This document shows, in pieces, positions 48,130-52,159 of a stretch of DNA of 64,000 nucleotides. The notes below the pieces were generated by a model. That model saw nothing but the letters and a program-made list of their open reading frames with translations, was not told where the DNA came from and ran no database searches. The stretch is from Methylomarinovum caldicuralii (GTDB lineage: Bacteria > Pseudomonadota > Gammaproteobacteria > Methylococcales > Methylothermaceae), in contig NZ_AP024714.1 in the NCBI RefSeq assembly GCF_033126985.1, positions 1,876,990 through 1,940,989 on the forward strand. The letters are read 5' to 3'. How positions within the stretch are numbered: position 1 is the first letter of the stretch; each line of letters begins with the position of its first letter. The translations under genes and the position numbers were made by a program.

Positions 48130-49344
48130 TCAGCTCAGCGGCCACATCGGCGTGTCACCCCCCTTGAGGAGCACACTCCAGTAGTACCAGGGCAGGAAGT
48201 ACTTCTTGAACCAGTACATGCTGCGGCGTTCCTTGCTCTGGTCGATGGGGAAGGTCTCCTTGGGCTTGAGGTTGTAGTCGAACTCCGCCAGCACCAGCTT
48301 GCCGTAGCCGGTAATCAGCGGGCAAGAGGCGTAACCGTCGTAGGCGGCGATGCCCTGCCCGCCTTCGAGATCGGTGACCAGGTTGCTGACCACCACGTAG
48401 GTCTGACCGCGGGCGGCGGCGGCGGTCTTGGAGTTGGGGGTGTTGGTGCAGTCGCCCAGGCCGTAGACGTTGGCGTATTTGACATGGCGCAGGGTGTGTT
48501 TGTCCACATCGACCCAGCCGCCCTCGCCTGCCAGGGGCGATTCCTTCAGGAAGGCCGGCGCCCGCATCGGCGGGGTGACGTGGAGGAAGTCGAAAGCGTG
48601 GGTCTGGCGGTCGCCGGTGACCACGTGCTCGAAGGTCGCCTCCTTCTTCTCCGGATCGACGGCCACCAGATGGTGCTGGAAGTGGGTTTCGATCGCCTTG
48701 CGCTTCAGCACCTCGTTCAGGGTTTTGGAATAGCGCTTGACCGGGAAGATGCCGGGGGCGGCGGCGAAGAACATCAGCTTGGTCTTGCCACGCACGTTGC
48801 GCTTGCGCCAGGCGTCGTCGGCCAGATAGGTGATCTTCTGCGCTGCGCCGGGACACTTGAACGGCGGCTTCGGCTGGGTGAAGATGGCCGTCCCGCCGCC
48901 GAAGCCCTTGATCGCCTCCCACACCCGCGGCGCCAGGTCGAAGTCGTAGATGGACTGGGCCACGTTGGCGTTGAGGGCTTCCTGCAGTCCGGGAACCGCA
49001 TCCCAGGCGATCTCGATGCCGGCCGCAACCACCAGGTATTCGTAACCGACCGTCTTGCCCGTGGCGGTGGTCAGGCGGTTGTTGTCCGGATCAAAGCTGG
49101 ATACCGCCTCCTGAATCCAGACCACGCCGTCGGGCACGACCTCCTTCATCGGCCGCCAGGTGGCCTTGGGTTTCATCTCCCCGGCGCCGACCAGGGTCCA
49201 GCCGGGCTGATAGTAATGCACGTCCTTGGGTTCGAGGACGGCCACGTCCAGGGTTTCGTCGTATTTCTTTAGATGGGATGCGACCGCCAGCCCGGCGGTG
49301 CCGCCGCCGACGATCACGATTTTATGGGAAAGGGTATCCGCCAT
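48130..49344 (-). CDS. sqr: sulfide:quinone oxidoreductase, type II-like
   Basis: 404 residues from ATG 49344 (a TTG 6 bp upstream is rejected; GGAGG lies 5-10 bp before the ATG). FAD-binding 'HKIVIVGGGTAGLAVASHL'; redox-active cysteines in 'PPFKCPGAAQKITYL' and 'GYASCPLITGYGKLVLAEF', closely like those of mitochondrial SQOR (type II); FAD-contact 'NVYGLGDCTNTPNSKTAAAA'. Oxidises sulfide at the membrane and passes electrons to the quinone pool. It lies 122 bp downstream of regA in the same direction, linking it to quinone-sensing RegBA. Confidence 0.92.
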   Translation of the reverse strand: MADTLSHKIVIVGGGTAGLAVASHLKKYDETLDVAVLEPKDVHYYQPGWTLVGAGEMKPKATWRPMKEVVPDGVVWIQEAVSSFDPDNNRLTTATGKTVGYEYLVVAAGIEIAWDAVPGLQEALNANVAQSIYDFDLAPRVWEAIKGFGGGTAIFTQPKPPFKCPGAAQKITYLADDAWRKRNVRGKTKLMFFAAAPGIFPVKRYSKTLNEVLKRKAIETHFQHHLVAVDPEKKEATFEHVVTGDRQTHAFDFLHVTPPMRAPAFLKESPLAGEGGWVDVDKHTLRHVKYANVYGLGDCTNTPNSKTAAAARGQTYVVVSNLVTDLEGGQGIAAYDGYASCPLITGYGKLVLAEFDYNLKPKETFPIDQSKERRSMYWFKKYFLPWYYWSVLLKGGDTPMWPLS

Positions 49345-49466
49345 TTCCAAGCCTCCAGATTCTTGTTTTCGATACCGAAGCAGTCGGCCGTATTATCTAT
49401 GCTTATACGCTATCTGCATAGAACGATAAGCGATCAAAAACGACGCCGCTTATTCCGTTCCCATAG

Positions 49467-50003
49467 TCATTCCCGCACCGGACGCTTGTCAAGCTTGCGC
49501 TGCAGGGTGCGGCGGTGCATCCCCAGGGCCCGGGCGGCGGCGGAGATGTTGCCGCCGTGTTCCATCAGTACCTTCTGCAGGTATTCCCACTCCATACGCT
49601 TGACCGACAGCGGCTTTTCCTTGATCTCCACGTTGGGATCGCCGGATTCCTTGTACAGCGCAGCGACGATCTCGTCGGCATCCGCCGGCTTGGTCAGGTA
49701 ATGGACGGCGCCCAGCTTGATGGCCTCCACCGCGGTGGCGATGCTGGCATAGCCGGTGAGCATGACGATCCGGGTGTTGACGTCCAGCTCCTTGAGCTTC
49801 TGCACCAGGACCAGGCCGGAATCGTGGCCGATACGCAGGTCGATGACGGCGTATTCCGGCGTCAGGCGGGTCGCCTGGGCCAGCCCCTCCTCCAGGGTGC
49901 GGGCGACGATCACCTGGAAGCCGCGTTTGCCCAGGGCCCGTTCCAGCACCTGGCAGAACACCTCGTCGTCATCCACCAGCAGCAGTCGCGGCAGGTCAGT
50001 CAT
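49467..50003 (-). CDS. regA: RegA/PrrA-type response regulator
   Basis: 178 residues from ATG 50003. Receiver domain with 'LLLVDDDEVFCQVL', phospho-acceptor Asp in 'YAVIDLRIGHDSGL', and Lys in 'YLTKPAD'; C-terminal Fis-type helix-turn-helix 'HGGNISAAARALGMHRRTLQRKLDKRPV', the near-invariant DNA-binding end of the RegA/PrrA/ActR/RoxR family. Regulates genes of respiration and redox balance. Start overlaps the regB stop by 8 bp. Confidence 0.95.
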   Translation of the reverse strand: MTDLPRLLLVDDDEVFCQVLERALGKRGFQVIVARTLEEGLAQATRLTPEYAVIDLRIGHDSGLVLVQKLKELDVNTRIVMLTGYASIATAVEAIKLGAVHYLTKPADADEIVAALYKESGDPNVEIKEKPLSVKRMEWEYLQKVLMEHGGNISAAARALGMHRRTLQRKLDKRPVRE

Positions 50004-51324
50004 GGGAATCCTCCTCATCGGGAGTCAGCAAAGGCAGGCGGATCCGGGTACAGGTGCCCTGATCCGGCATGGGTTCCATCAGAATCTCGCCACCGAGCCG
50101 CTCGACCGTGGCATAGGCCAAAAAAAGCCCGACACCCAGGCCGCGTTTCTTCGAGGCCACCGGCCGCCGCCCCAGCACCTCCCGCAGATCGGGGGTGATG
50201 CCGGGGCCGCAGTCGATGATCGCCAGATCGAGCCAGGCGTGATTCCAGCGCGCCTGCAGCAGCACCGGTTCGGTCGAAACCTCGGCGGCGTTGTTGAGAA
50301 TGTTCAGCAGCGCATGGGTCAGGGTCTGCTCGGCGAGCAGCGCCGCCTCTTCGGGACCGCCGTTGAGCTGGAGTTTCAGGCGGGCGCCGGGACGCTGCTG
50401 ACGCCACTGGCCCACCAGGTATTCGAGATACCGGCGCACCTGCTCCCGGTGGCCCCCTTCGGCGCGGGCGTGGCCCGCCGAAGCGGACATGACCGCCAGG
50501 GCGTTCTTGCAGCGCTCGATCTGGTCCTTGAAGATCAGCAGCCGCTGGCGCAGGGAGCGGTCTTCCGGGCGGTCGTAGTCCTCCAGCAGCTCCTGCAGCA
50601 GGATCGCCATGGTCCCCAGCGGGGTGCCCATTTCGTGGGCGGCGCCGGCCGCCAGGGTCCCCAAAGCGATGACCTGTTCGTCCCGCAGCGCCTGCTCGCG
50701 GATCTCCGCCAGGCGCCGCTCCCGTTCCCGCAGGGTGTTGGCCATCTCCACCACGAAATAGGCCACCAGCCCGGCGCTGAAGACGAACCCCACCCAGGTG
50801 CCGAAGGCGTGCAGCTCGAACCGCCGGCCTTCGATCTCCTCCGGCGGCAGCAGCCGGGTGTCCTTGACCTCCATCACCGGCAGCGCCGGCAGCGGGTGGA
50901 AGTGGAAGATCAGCAGGGTATAGCAGCCACAGGTCAGCAGCATCATCAACCAGGTGAACTGCTGGGGCAGGACCGTGGCAGTGATGATCAACGGCAGCAG
51001 CAGAAACCAGGCCATGGGATTGGTGGCCCCGCCAGCGAAGTACAACAGGCTGGTGATGCCCACGGCATCGAGACACAGATGGCCGAAAAGCTCCCACTCG
51101 GTCACCGGCCTTTCGTGCTGGAGACGGAACCAGGTCAGGCAATTGAGCGCCACGGTCATGGCGATGATGCCCAAGAGCGGATCGGTTTCCAGGGGAACGC
51201 CGACACCGAAGAGGGTCACCAGAATGATGAGAAGCTCGGCGATGATCAGCAGATTGCGCAGCAGAAACAGGGAACGCAGGTTGCGGCGCGCGGCGTCGGC
51301 CGAATCAAGCGGCAGCTGAAACAT
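49996..51324 (-). CDS. regB: RegB/PrrB-type redox sensor histidine kinase
   Basis: 442 residues. Six N-terminal membrane helices with 'YFAGGATNPMAWFLLLP', matching the RegB quinone-site heptad GGxxNPx (Met in place of the usual Phe); H-box 'LGTLAAGAAHEMGTPLGTMA'; the redox-active Cys position in 'KDQIERCKNALAVMS'; and N/G boxes 'LLNILNNAAEVS', 'IDCGPGITPDL', 'KKRGLGVGLFLA'. Phosphorylates RegA when the quinone pool is reduced. A RegA-like box lies 42 bp upstream of its ATG (51366-51382), so autoregulation is possible. Confidence 0.95.
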   Translation of the reverse strand: MFQLPLDSADAARRNLRSLFLLRNLLIIAELLIILVTLFGVGVPLETDPLLGIIAMTVALNCLTWFRLQHERPVTEWELFGHLCLDAVGITSLLYFAGGATNPMAWFLLLPLIITATVLPQQFTWLMMLLTCGCYTLLIFHFHPLPALPVMEVKDTRLLPPEEIEGRRFELHAFGTWVGFVFSAGLVAYFVVEMANTLRERERRLAEIREQALRDEQVIALGTLAAGAAHEMGTPLGTMAILLQELLEDYDRPEDRSLRQRLLIFKDQIERCKNALAVMSASAGHARAEGGHREQVRRYLEYLVGQWRQQRPGARLKLQLNGGPEEAALLAEQTLTHALLNILNNAAEVSTEPVLLQARWNHAWLDLAIIDCGPGITPDLREVLGRRPVASKKRGLGVGLFLAYATVERLGGEILMEPMPDQGTCTRIRLPLLTPDEEDSHD

Positions 51325-51365: not shown

Positions 51366-51382
51366 TGCGACAATTTGTCACA
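51366..51382 (+). promoter_or_regulatory. inverted-repeat operator 1 (RegA-like box)
   Basis: TGCGACAATTTGTCACA: 8-bp arms around one central base, one mismatch. Followed by TTCCCA. The GCGAC/GTCGC half-sites resemble those reported for RegA/PrrA/RegR-type regulators. Centre 32 bp upstream of a -10 hexamer TATTCT on the + strand, and near regB on the - strand. Confidence 0.6.
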
Positions 51383-51405
51383 TTCCCAAACCCGCCCATA
51401 ACCAC

Positions 51406-51411
51406 TATTCT
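51406..51411 (+). promoter_or_regulatory. -10 hexamer of candidate sRNA 1
   Basis: TATTCT, starting 32 bp from the operator 1 centre, the same distance as in unit 2. No good -35; an activator-dependent promoter is inferred. Confidence 0.45.
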
Positions 51412-51417
51412 TTAACT

Positions 51418-51516
51418 CGACGGTAATGCTCATTACCTCCTGTCTCGCTTGTCTCGGCAGACAGTCTATTTCCTCCTCTTGATGCAGGGAGCTCGCTCCC
51501 TGCAGATTTCTTTTTT
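51418..51516 (+). ncRNA. candidate small RNA 1 (CCTCCTC type)
   Basis: About 99 nt predicted from the -10 to the terminator. Hairpin GTAAT-GCTC-ATTAC (51423-51436), a second stem CTGTC (51440-51444)/GACAG (51460-51464), CCTCCT at 51436-51441, exposed CCTCCTC at 51472-51478, then a 10-bp terminator stem. No open frame with a ribosome-binding site. CCUCCUC can pair with Shine-Dalgarno sequences, as known for CcsR-type sRNAs of Rhodobacter. Paralogous in layout to the next unit; expression not shown. Confidence 0.5.
51483..51516 (+). terminator. Rho-independent terminator of sRNA 1
   Basis: Perfect 10-bp stem TGCAGGGAGC/GCTCCCTGCA with a 2-nt loop, then GATTTCTTTTTT. T-tract only on the + strand, where no protein gene lies upstream. 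Confidence 0.7.
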
Positions 51517-51531
51517 CCGATGTTGTCTCCC

Positions 51532-51548
51532 TGCGACAATTTGTCGCA
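51532..51548 (+). promoter_or_regulatory. inverted-repeat operator 2 (RegA-like box)
   Basis: TGCGACAATTTGTCGCA: perfect 8-bp arms around a central T, again followed by TTCCCA. Centre 32 bp upstream of TATGAT. Confidence 0.65.
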
Positions 51549-51571
51549 TTCCCAGCGATTTCATGGGTTGC

Positions 51572-51577
51572 TATGAT
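51572..51577 (+). promoter_or_regulatory. -10 hexamer of candidate sRNA 2
   Basis: TATGAT, one base from consensus; operator 2 occupies the -35 region, centred near -44 relative to a start at about 51584. Confidence 0.55.
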
Positions 51578-51583
51578 GTAACC

Positions 51584-51673
51584 GTGTTCGGTTATGACCG
51601 AACCCACATTGCATGACAGTAGTGCAATACTCCTCCTCTTTGACAGCAGGGCGTTTCACCCTGCTGTTTTTTT
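51584..51673 (+). ncRNA. candidate small RNA 2 (CCTCCTC type)
   Basis: About 90 nt. First hairpin GTTCGGT-TATG-ACCGAAC (51586-51603), second ATTGCA/TGCAAT (51608-51613, 51623-51628), exposed CTCCTCCTC (51630-51638), then terminator. The CCTCCTCTT motif lies the same few bases before the terminator stem as in unit 1. No protein gene is transcribed in this direction here, so the strong + strand terminator argues for a short transcript. Confidence 0.58.
51643..51673 (+). terminator. Rho-independent terminator of sRNA 2
   Basis: 9-bp stem ACAGCAGGG/CCCTGCTGT, 7-nt loop, T7. No T-tract on the minus side, so it does not serve the leftward HbpS-like gene. Confidence 0.8.
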
Positions 51674-51679
51674 ATGCCT

Positions 51680-52159
51680 TCAGTCCCTGCCGCGCAGGAC
51701 CCGCAGCCCCGCCCGGGCGCAGGCCACGTCCAGCATCGCCCCCGGCGCCCCGCCGACTCCGATGGCACCGACCACTTCCCTGGCTTCGACAATCGGCAGG
51801 CCGCCGCCGAGCAGCAGAATCTTCTCGTTCATGTCGCCCAGCGCCTGGATCTTGGGATCCTTGACCACCCGTTCCACCAGTTTGTGGGTCGGATGGCGCA
51901 GGGTCAAGGCGGTATAGGCTTTGCGCCAGCTGCTGTCGATGGTATGGGGTCCGGCCTGCTCGTCCCGCAGCAGCGCCAACAGCTGGCCACTGCGGTCCAC
52001 CACCGCCACGGCATAGCCCTTTCCCTGGCAAGCCCGCTGCGCCGCCTGGGCGGCCTTTATCGCGCCTGCCAGGGTGATGGTTTTCTGTTCGACGGTCTCA
52101 ACTGCCTCAACGTTCACGAAAAACGCCACGCCCAAAAGTCCCAGCAACCACTTCTTCAT
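51680..52159 (-). CDS. HbpS/GlcG family (DUF336) exported protein
   Basis: 159 residues. Signal peptide 'MKKWLLGLLGVAFFVNVEA', then the GlcG/HbpS domain: 'GYAVAVVDRSGQLLALLRDEQAGPHTIDSSWRKAYTA' and 'LLGGGLPIVEAREVVGAIGVGGAPGAMLDVACARAG'. Members bind heme or small molecules extracytoplasmically; in Streptomyces HbpS is a redox/heme sensor acting with a two-component system. Next to regBA, a sensing role is tempting but unproven. Start overlaps the aldolase-family gene stop by ATGA. Confidence 0.85.
   Translation of the reverse strand: MKKWLLGLLGVAFFVNVEAVETVEQKTITLAGAIKAAQAAQRACQGKGYAVAVVDRSGQLLALLRDEQAGPHTIDSSWRKAYTALTLRHPTHKLVERVVKDPKIQALGDMNEKILLLGGGLPIVEAREVVGAIGVGGAPGAMLDVACARAGLRVLRGRD

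Follow-up and report, generated by a model that had tools for sequence, protein, structure and literature searches.

Just upstream of regB, the window (the whole stretch of 64,000 nucleotides analysed here) carries two short inverted repeats, and this raises the question which genes these sites serve and which regulator binds them. As the original prediction claimed, the core of operator 2, TGCGACAATTTGTCGCA, is a perfect 8+1+8 palindrome, and the core of operator 1, TGCGACAATTTGTCACA, differs from it by a single mismatch. Each 17-mer forms the core of a longer direct repeat of 23 nt, TGCGACAATTTGTCRCATTCCCA, whose two copies are 96% identical and offset by 166 nt. Two perfect 8+1+8 palindromes occur in the 64-kb window, and a lone one is weak evidence. 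Chance is excluded for the operator pair because of its duplication and conservation, not because of palindromy alone.

We scanned the complete genome of 2,694,844 bp for the 17-mer, as had been suggested. With at most one mismatch, the strict 17-mer occurred at just two places, while the reversed-pattern control gave no place at up to two mismatches. The loose RegA motif GCGNC-N5-GNCGC was uninformative, with 416 matches in the whole genome versus 413 for its control. Hence, the strict 17-mer is not scattered at random, whereas the loose motif is indistinguishable from its control. The sole extra place at two mismatches, position 1099732, was dropped as a third genomic operator because, by our own reading of the sequence, it sits within a terminator-type hairpin.

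The sites appear to have a role that was overlooked earlier: they are predicted to drive small RNA genes. Two tandem sibling genes, sRNA-A and sRNA-B, are predicted divergent from regB, each behind one operator (Table 1). Each copy has the same predicted anatomy, i.e., operator, -10 box, a structured stretch of ~95 nt and an intrinsic terminator, and both sRNAs are predicted to have their own promoter and intrinsic terminator within the intergenic region. The predicted folds had z-scores of -3.64 (sRNA-A) and -4.79 (sRNA-B) compared with shuffled sequence, for slightly different ends than those tabulated. Both sequences matched an RNA model of whose training set they are members. In both RNAs, a stretch CCUCCUCUU(U)GA is predicted to be unpaired directly 5' of the terminator. 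The next gene (51680-52159) lies on the opposite strand and is convergent to the sRNAs; therefore, sRNA-A and sRNA-B are not its leaders.

Table 1. Features of the regB/regA locus and of the adjoining intergenic region (positions in the window).
Feature	Position	Strand	Basis or remark
regA, response regulator, Fis-type helix-turn-helix	49467..50018	-	NF033791 (ActR_PrrA_rreg) best match; proposed operator binder
regB, redox histidine kinase	49996..51324	-	NCBIfam NF033792 (ActS_PrrB_HisK) best match
Operator 1	51366..51388	+	core 51366-51382, ATTCCCA flank; upstream element of sRNA-A
Predicted -10 box of sRNA-A, TATTCT	51406..51411	+	same 166-nt offset as copy 2
sRNA-A, predicted	51418..51516	+	terminator scan, fold, RNA model match; ends inferred
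sRNA-A first CCTCC	51436-51440	+	
sRNA-A unpaired CCTCCTCTTGA	51472-51482	+	fold prediction
sRNA-A terminator stem	51483-51504	+	T-rich tail after stem
Operator 2	51532..51554	+	core 51532-51548, ATTCCCA flank; upstream element of sRNA-B
Predicted -10 box of sRNA-B, TATGAT	51572..51577	+	TGC precedes: extended -10
sRNA-B, predicted	51584..51674	+	terminator scan, fold, RNA model match; ends inferred
sRNA-B unpaired CTCCTCCTCTTT	51630-51641	+	fold prediction
sRNA-B terminator	51642-51668	+	T run after it

The predicted promoters combine an extended -10 box with the lack of a clear -35 box; an extended -10 box of the TGnTA type is also common in the promoters of relatives. The promoter scan reported the -10 box of the second copy only, and the first box was taken from the 166-nt offset. 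In both copies, the gap between the 19-mer and the -10 box is 21 nt, as in relatives. Across the 53 sites with a recognised -10 box, this gap was 21 nt in 50 and 20 nt in the other three, which agrees with the activator-like position proposed earlier. Site 2 is centred at 51540 and the predicted start of sRNA-B lies at ~51584, so that the centre falls near -44 of the start. The sites had been placed near -44 of their -10 boxes; the value is about right, but the correct reference point is the predicted start.

Both genes of the two-component system were tentatively assigned by their best NCBIfam matches, at 213.6 bits for RegB (below the cut-off of 350) and 191.5 bits for RegA (below the cut-off of 250). 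RegA combines a receiver domain (PF00072) with a Fis-type helix-turn-helix (PF02954), according to Pfam. RegB contains a quinone-box GGxxNP and a redox cysteine near the H-box, and residues G98, G99, N102, P103, H230 and C272 were invariant in an alignment of 11 sequences. We take G98, G99, N102 and P103 to be the quinone site and C272 the redox site. Quinone-box and redox-cysteine roles of such RegB residues are described in the available text of PMC13274454 and PMC5506826. Downstream of regA on the same strand, the gene at 48130-49350 resembles NCBIfam NF049943, a type III sulfide:quinone reductase, with a score of 254 bits that falls short of the cut-off of 525. Through this neighbour, sulfide oxidation may be linked to the RegBA locus.

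Site 1 starts 42 nt from the regB start (51324), and the regA start is ~1.35 kb off, as had been claimed. The closeness of site 1 would fit a role of the sites as mainly autoregulatory operators of regB, with the opposite-strand transcripts as by-products, and so would the adjacency of operator and regB in other genomes. RegB alone was the criterion for selecting 76 loci with 400 nt or more of upstream sequence; 50 of them had the operator within 450 nt at up to two mismatches, and it was absent within these limits in the other 26. However, the distance from operator to the start of the RegB match varied freely in these 50 loci, from 26 to 300 nt, while the gap to the -10 box was fixed. The fixed geometry therefore belongs to the RNA promoter, and the idea that one site serves both directions is unsupported. 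A terminator was found 60-150 nt beyond the operator in 49 of the 50 operator-bearing loci; these RegB-selected figures are less biased than a count of 123/163, which includes loci fetched for the RNA itself. Moreover, 208 nt and a terminator separate site 2 from regB. Together with the behaviour of the RNAs away from regB, this disfavours regB autoregulation, which we consider very unlikely as the main function of the sites.

As an independent test, RNA loci away from regB were examined with RNA models that exclude the operator sequence. Forty regions were fetched and 36 matches were scored, with L210-L213 left out. Thirty-two of these matches either lay 28 kb or more away from RegA or sat on a different contig from RegA or RegB; the remaining four were 2.4 to 9.5 kb from RegA. 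The operator was present at up to two mismatches upstream of 34 of the 36 matches, exactly 31 nt before the match in 23 of them; L192 and L196 had no upstream operator at this threshold. Elsewhere in the same locus, the best operator match had at least four mismatches in all but one of the 34 loci. The operator thus travels with the RNA, also where regB is far away.

The operator is conserved across the order Methylococcales. At up to one mismatch, YGCGRCAAWTTGYCRCATT was found in 138 of 151 genomes, including 126 of the 132 good ones, whereas its reversed control was found in 14 of 151 (our own count). Among sites preselected at up to two mismatches, 13 of the 19 operator columns held one base in at least 98% of the sequences. 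A DNA search of the 151 genomes gave matches in 40. Of the seven same-genus matches, including that of the window itself, six spanned most of the query and one (G018) its second half, and both operator-RNA copies were present in each of the seven genomes (loci L034-L040). The more distant matches were mostly concentrated on the two operators and at the 3' portions of the RNAs.

Two sequence forms of the RNA were recognized. The first, CCUCCUCUUGA, occurs in Methylothermaceae, Methylococcaceae and some others, and the second, AACUUUU...AAAGUUGCGUUAUAUCCUUCCUAAU, in Methylobacter and kin. The corresponding models R1 and R2 matched 26 and 58 of the 151 genomes, respectively, in different families and with training sequences among the matches. 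The underlying set was reduced from 32 to 31 rows by dropping L045 (terminator energy -1.3, no fitting RNA), and L057 was trimmed to its second operator. Alignment A2 kept 21 of the 31 rows, leaving out near-identical rows and the longer, different RNAs of L041, L042 and L054, while alignment A4 kept 25 of 36 distinct rows and left out 11 near-identical or divergent ones.

Double changes occurred in six of ten terminator pairs of the first form and in four of eight of the second. In the second form, 96.7% of the cells were paired, compared with at most 62.2% when the partner was slid. Of 500 shuffled alignments of this form, 24 reached four double-change pairs and 441 reached the observed number of further pair types; the latter control does not favour structure. 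In the 5' stem of the second form, changes are confined to one side, and hence the covariation supports the terminator only. The search of the window region against Rfam 15 returned five matches, all below gathering (the best with 22.6 versus 46 bits), and the sRNA places of 12 and 11 further loci gave no match (E to 0.5 and 0.3, respectively). A literature search that covered few subscription papers yielded no description of the sRNA family or its operator.

Not all operators precede such RNAs. In the Methylomonas group, a terminator was found behind 12 of 27 oriented operator sites; there was none behind the other 15, several of which precede protein genes. Loci L224, L225, L228 and L249 of this group contain further predicted operator-driven RNAs, which differ in sequence and have 5' ends of the CAACUCUU type. 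Before the terminator, these have UAUCCUUCCUC (L224, L225) or UACCCCACCUCU (L228, L249), and a single genome can bear several such kinds. In L043, L053 and L227 (family f6), in which no regB was found, the operator lies upstream of genes that we read as encoding CobW-type GTPase-like and outer-membrane or exported protein-like products; L043 and L053 also bear another short terminator-ended stretch.

Outside the order, the exact operator was found in 19 of 365 genomes and its reversed control in none. In the fetched loci, the operator lay beside regB in six of these 19 genomes, and the downstream genes were mostly protein genes (partly our own reading). Only one of 31 out-of-order sites had a terminator at the RNA distance. 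These results suggest that the RegA operator is ancestral and that the RNAs were appended to it in Methylococcales. One out-of-order locus, L093 (G176), has CCUCC and a terminator-like hairpin behind the operator and is possibly an sRNA unit.

Which regulator binds the operators? The half-sites had been likened to those of the RegA family, and site 2 indeed has 0, 1 and 1 mismatches to the RegA, PrrA and RegR consensuses as quoted in the available text of PMC5506826, while site 1 has 1, 1 and 2. Since the loose RegA consensus fits perfectly at 164 places of the 64-kb window, this agreement is weak on its own. The distribution over genomes is more telling. At up to one mismatch, the operator was present in 136 of 141 genomes with RegA versus two of ten without (Fisher p ~1e-8, ignoring relatedness). 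The two exceptions were G132, in which RegB is cut at a contig edge and RegA probably falls in an assembly gap, and G070, which is 73% complete. Among genomes that are at least 90% complete, all five RegA-less ones, from three families, lacked the operator, compared with only one (G086) of the 127 others. This co-loss is partly expected, because one operator often adjoins regB. In three genomes of the window's genus (G026, G030, G042), neither RegA nor the operator nor an sRNA match was found at the thresholds used.

Alternatively, the operators could serve the sRNAs but be bound by another regulator with a similar palindrome, e.g. of the CRP/FNR type, the proximity to regB being incidental. 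The operator ends, TGYGA and TCRCA, resemble CRP-type half-sites, and the RegA-negative G070 keeps two sites. CRP half-sites are usually six bases apart, however, whereas the spacing is seven bases here. A different binder is also at odds with the near match to the RegA, PrrA and RegR consensuses, the co-loss with RegA in the five near-complete genomes, and the adjacency of operator and regB in other orders. In favour of another binder, feo was the only one among three tested promoters to be enriched by RegA-ChIP in Methylomonas sp. DH-1 (available text of PMC13274454), and none of the feoA loci in ten Methylomonas-group genomes, which may not include DH-1, had the operator at up to three mismatches; one of these loci (L222) reaches just ~155 nt upstream. 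These data imply that RegA binds something else too in DH-1. In view of the spacing and the co-loss with RegA, we ranked a CRP/FNR-type operator lower, and a binder other than RegA seems unlikely. RegA as the putative binder of both operators is well supported by these comparisons.

The exposed stretch of the RNAs may act as an anti-Shine-Dalgarno sequence. In the window genome, the pattern AAGAGGAG-N4-11-ATG occurred at nine places versus five for the control. This is no clear excess of AAGAGGAG before ATG, and it weakens the anti-Shine-Dalgarno reading. The nine places include a gene of the PQQ methanol/ethanol dehydrogenase family, hrcA and, by our own reading, fructose-bisphosphatase; as targets, they were set aside for lack of a clear excess, and their duplex energies, which ignore folding, were not used. 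Upstream of hrcA in the window genome (L263), AAGAGGAGGAGT shortly before the start is complementary over 12 bases to ACUCCUCCUCUU of sRNA-B. In the Methylomonas group, L231, L229 and L243 (genomes G112 and G065) contain an operator-driven stretch with a long purine run, e.g. AAAAAGGGGGAGGAGG. Such a run is complementary to the anti-Shine-Dalgarno stretch of the sRNAs and is a possible co-regulated target or sponge.

The transcripts could also be real but function as RNA sponges, protein-binding decoys or small-peptide genes, instead of pairing with ribosome-binding sites. That the pyrimidine stretch differs between families, with CCUCCUCUUGA in one and UCCUUCCUAA in the other, would be compatible with such functions. 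Yet, each version is complementary to purine runs of the Shine-Dalgarno type and is predicted to lie unpaired, or within a loop, ahead of the terminator. As to a peptide, sRNA-A has a frame of 18 codons, but by our own reading L036 has TTG in place of its ATG and other codons thereafter. We regard these functions as improbable.

Our preferred explanation, which we hold to be probable, is that RegA bound at both operators activates sibling small RNAs that mask ribosome-binding sites. It builds on the repeats, fixed geometry, terminators, predicted structure, order-wide conservation, retention of the operator with distant RNAs and co-loss with RegA observed here. To these, the model adds the transcription of the RNAs, the binding of RegA, its action as an activator and not as a repressor, the redox signal and the targets of pairing. 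According to this model, an over-reduced quinone pool would cause RegB to phosphorylate RegA. Phosphorylated RegA would bind the operators at about -44, one per tandem sRNA gene, and would recruit RNA polymerase to extended -10 promoters that have no clear -35 box. Activation by contact with the polymerase would fit the operator centre at about -44, the extended -10 box and the lack of a clear -35 box. The sibling RNAs of ~95 nt would then form hairpins and an intrinsic terminator and leave exposed a CCUCCUCUU(U)GA stretch that would mimic the anti-Shine-Dalgarno sequence of 16S rRNA. Pairing with the ribosome-binding sites of selected mRNAs would lower their translation. The unit of switch and RNA is probably one route from redox signal to protein production in the order.

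A sharp RegA motif has been elusive so far. Neither a ChIP-seq study of PrrA (PMC4263372) nor a study of RegA in Acidithiobacillus (PMC5506826) obtained a usable consensus. The 19-bp operator recurs with fixed promoter geometry across the order, and RegA binding is therefore directly testable. The analysis further adds a predicted sRNA family without an Rfam match. The sRNAs also offer candidates for the intermediaries of RegA control in a methanotroph of importance for methane removal and biotechnology (PMC13274454).

Among the closest known systems is RegB/RegA of Methylomonas sp. DH-1, the same two-component system in the same order. The accessible text of PMC13274454 reports that DH-1 RegB/RegA is active in methanol-induced redox stress and that growth on methanol requires RegA; it also proposes that the system is active with a reduced quinone pool. 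Some regA-dependent genes of DH-1 were not bound by RegA, and according to the same text the intermediaries are still to be identified; none of the terms motif, small RNA and sRNA appears in the paper's main text. The operator-driven sRNAs are candidates for these intermediaries of RegA control. DH-1 differs in its direct target feo, which lacks the operator in the ten related genomes, DH-1 perhaps not among them. More speculatively, and with considerable doubt, RegA may have been rewired in gammaproteobacterial methanotrophs. In several lineages, it would have a strict high-affinity operator at few places beyond the promoters of fast-evolving sRNAs that mimic the anti-Shine-Dalgarno sequence, the redox signal would be turned largely into selective translational control, and the sRNAs would be the intermediaries of the Methylomonas RegA regulon.

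Several known sRNAs share parts of this design. RoxS also has C-rich regions that block ribosome-binding sites (PMC8216469, available text), but RoxS/RsaE of Bacillus and Staphylococcus belong to Firmicutes, with another two-component system and additional control by Rex. In Neisseria meningitidis, NmsRA and NmsRB are likewise two tandem siblings that share an intergenic region, and their anti-Shine-Dalgarno motifs reduce translation, but the available text of PMC5362039 ties them to the stringent response and RelA and not to a redox two-component system. The Rfam family RF02869 (ncS025; NcS25 of Burkholderia) has a similar length and CUCC and CUUUG stretches before the terminator. Its score of 22.6 bits against a gathering threshold of 46 means that the window sRNA is not a member, and NcS25 has a porin target and the term RegA is absent from the available text of PMC10117139.

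Small RNAs under control of the RegA family are already known from PcrZ of Rhodobacter sphaeroides; the family described here is a sibling family with its operator and, in the window region and the 23 further loci searched, without a match in Rfam 15. As described in the available text of PMC8139620, PcrZ is induced at low oxygen via a RegA-family regulator and has a PrrA consensus in its promoter. PcrZ, however, is one sRNA that acts on photosynthesis mRNAs, whereas here each locus is predicted to hold one or more sibling RNAs, which carry an anti-Shine-Dalgarno-like stretch and are spread across an order of methanotrophs.
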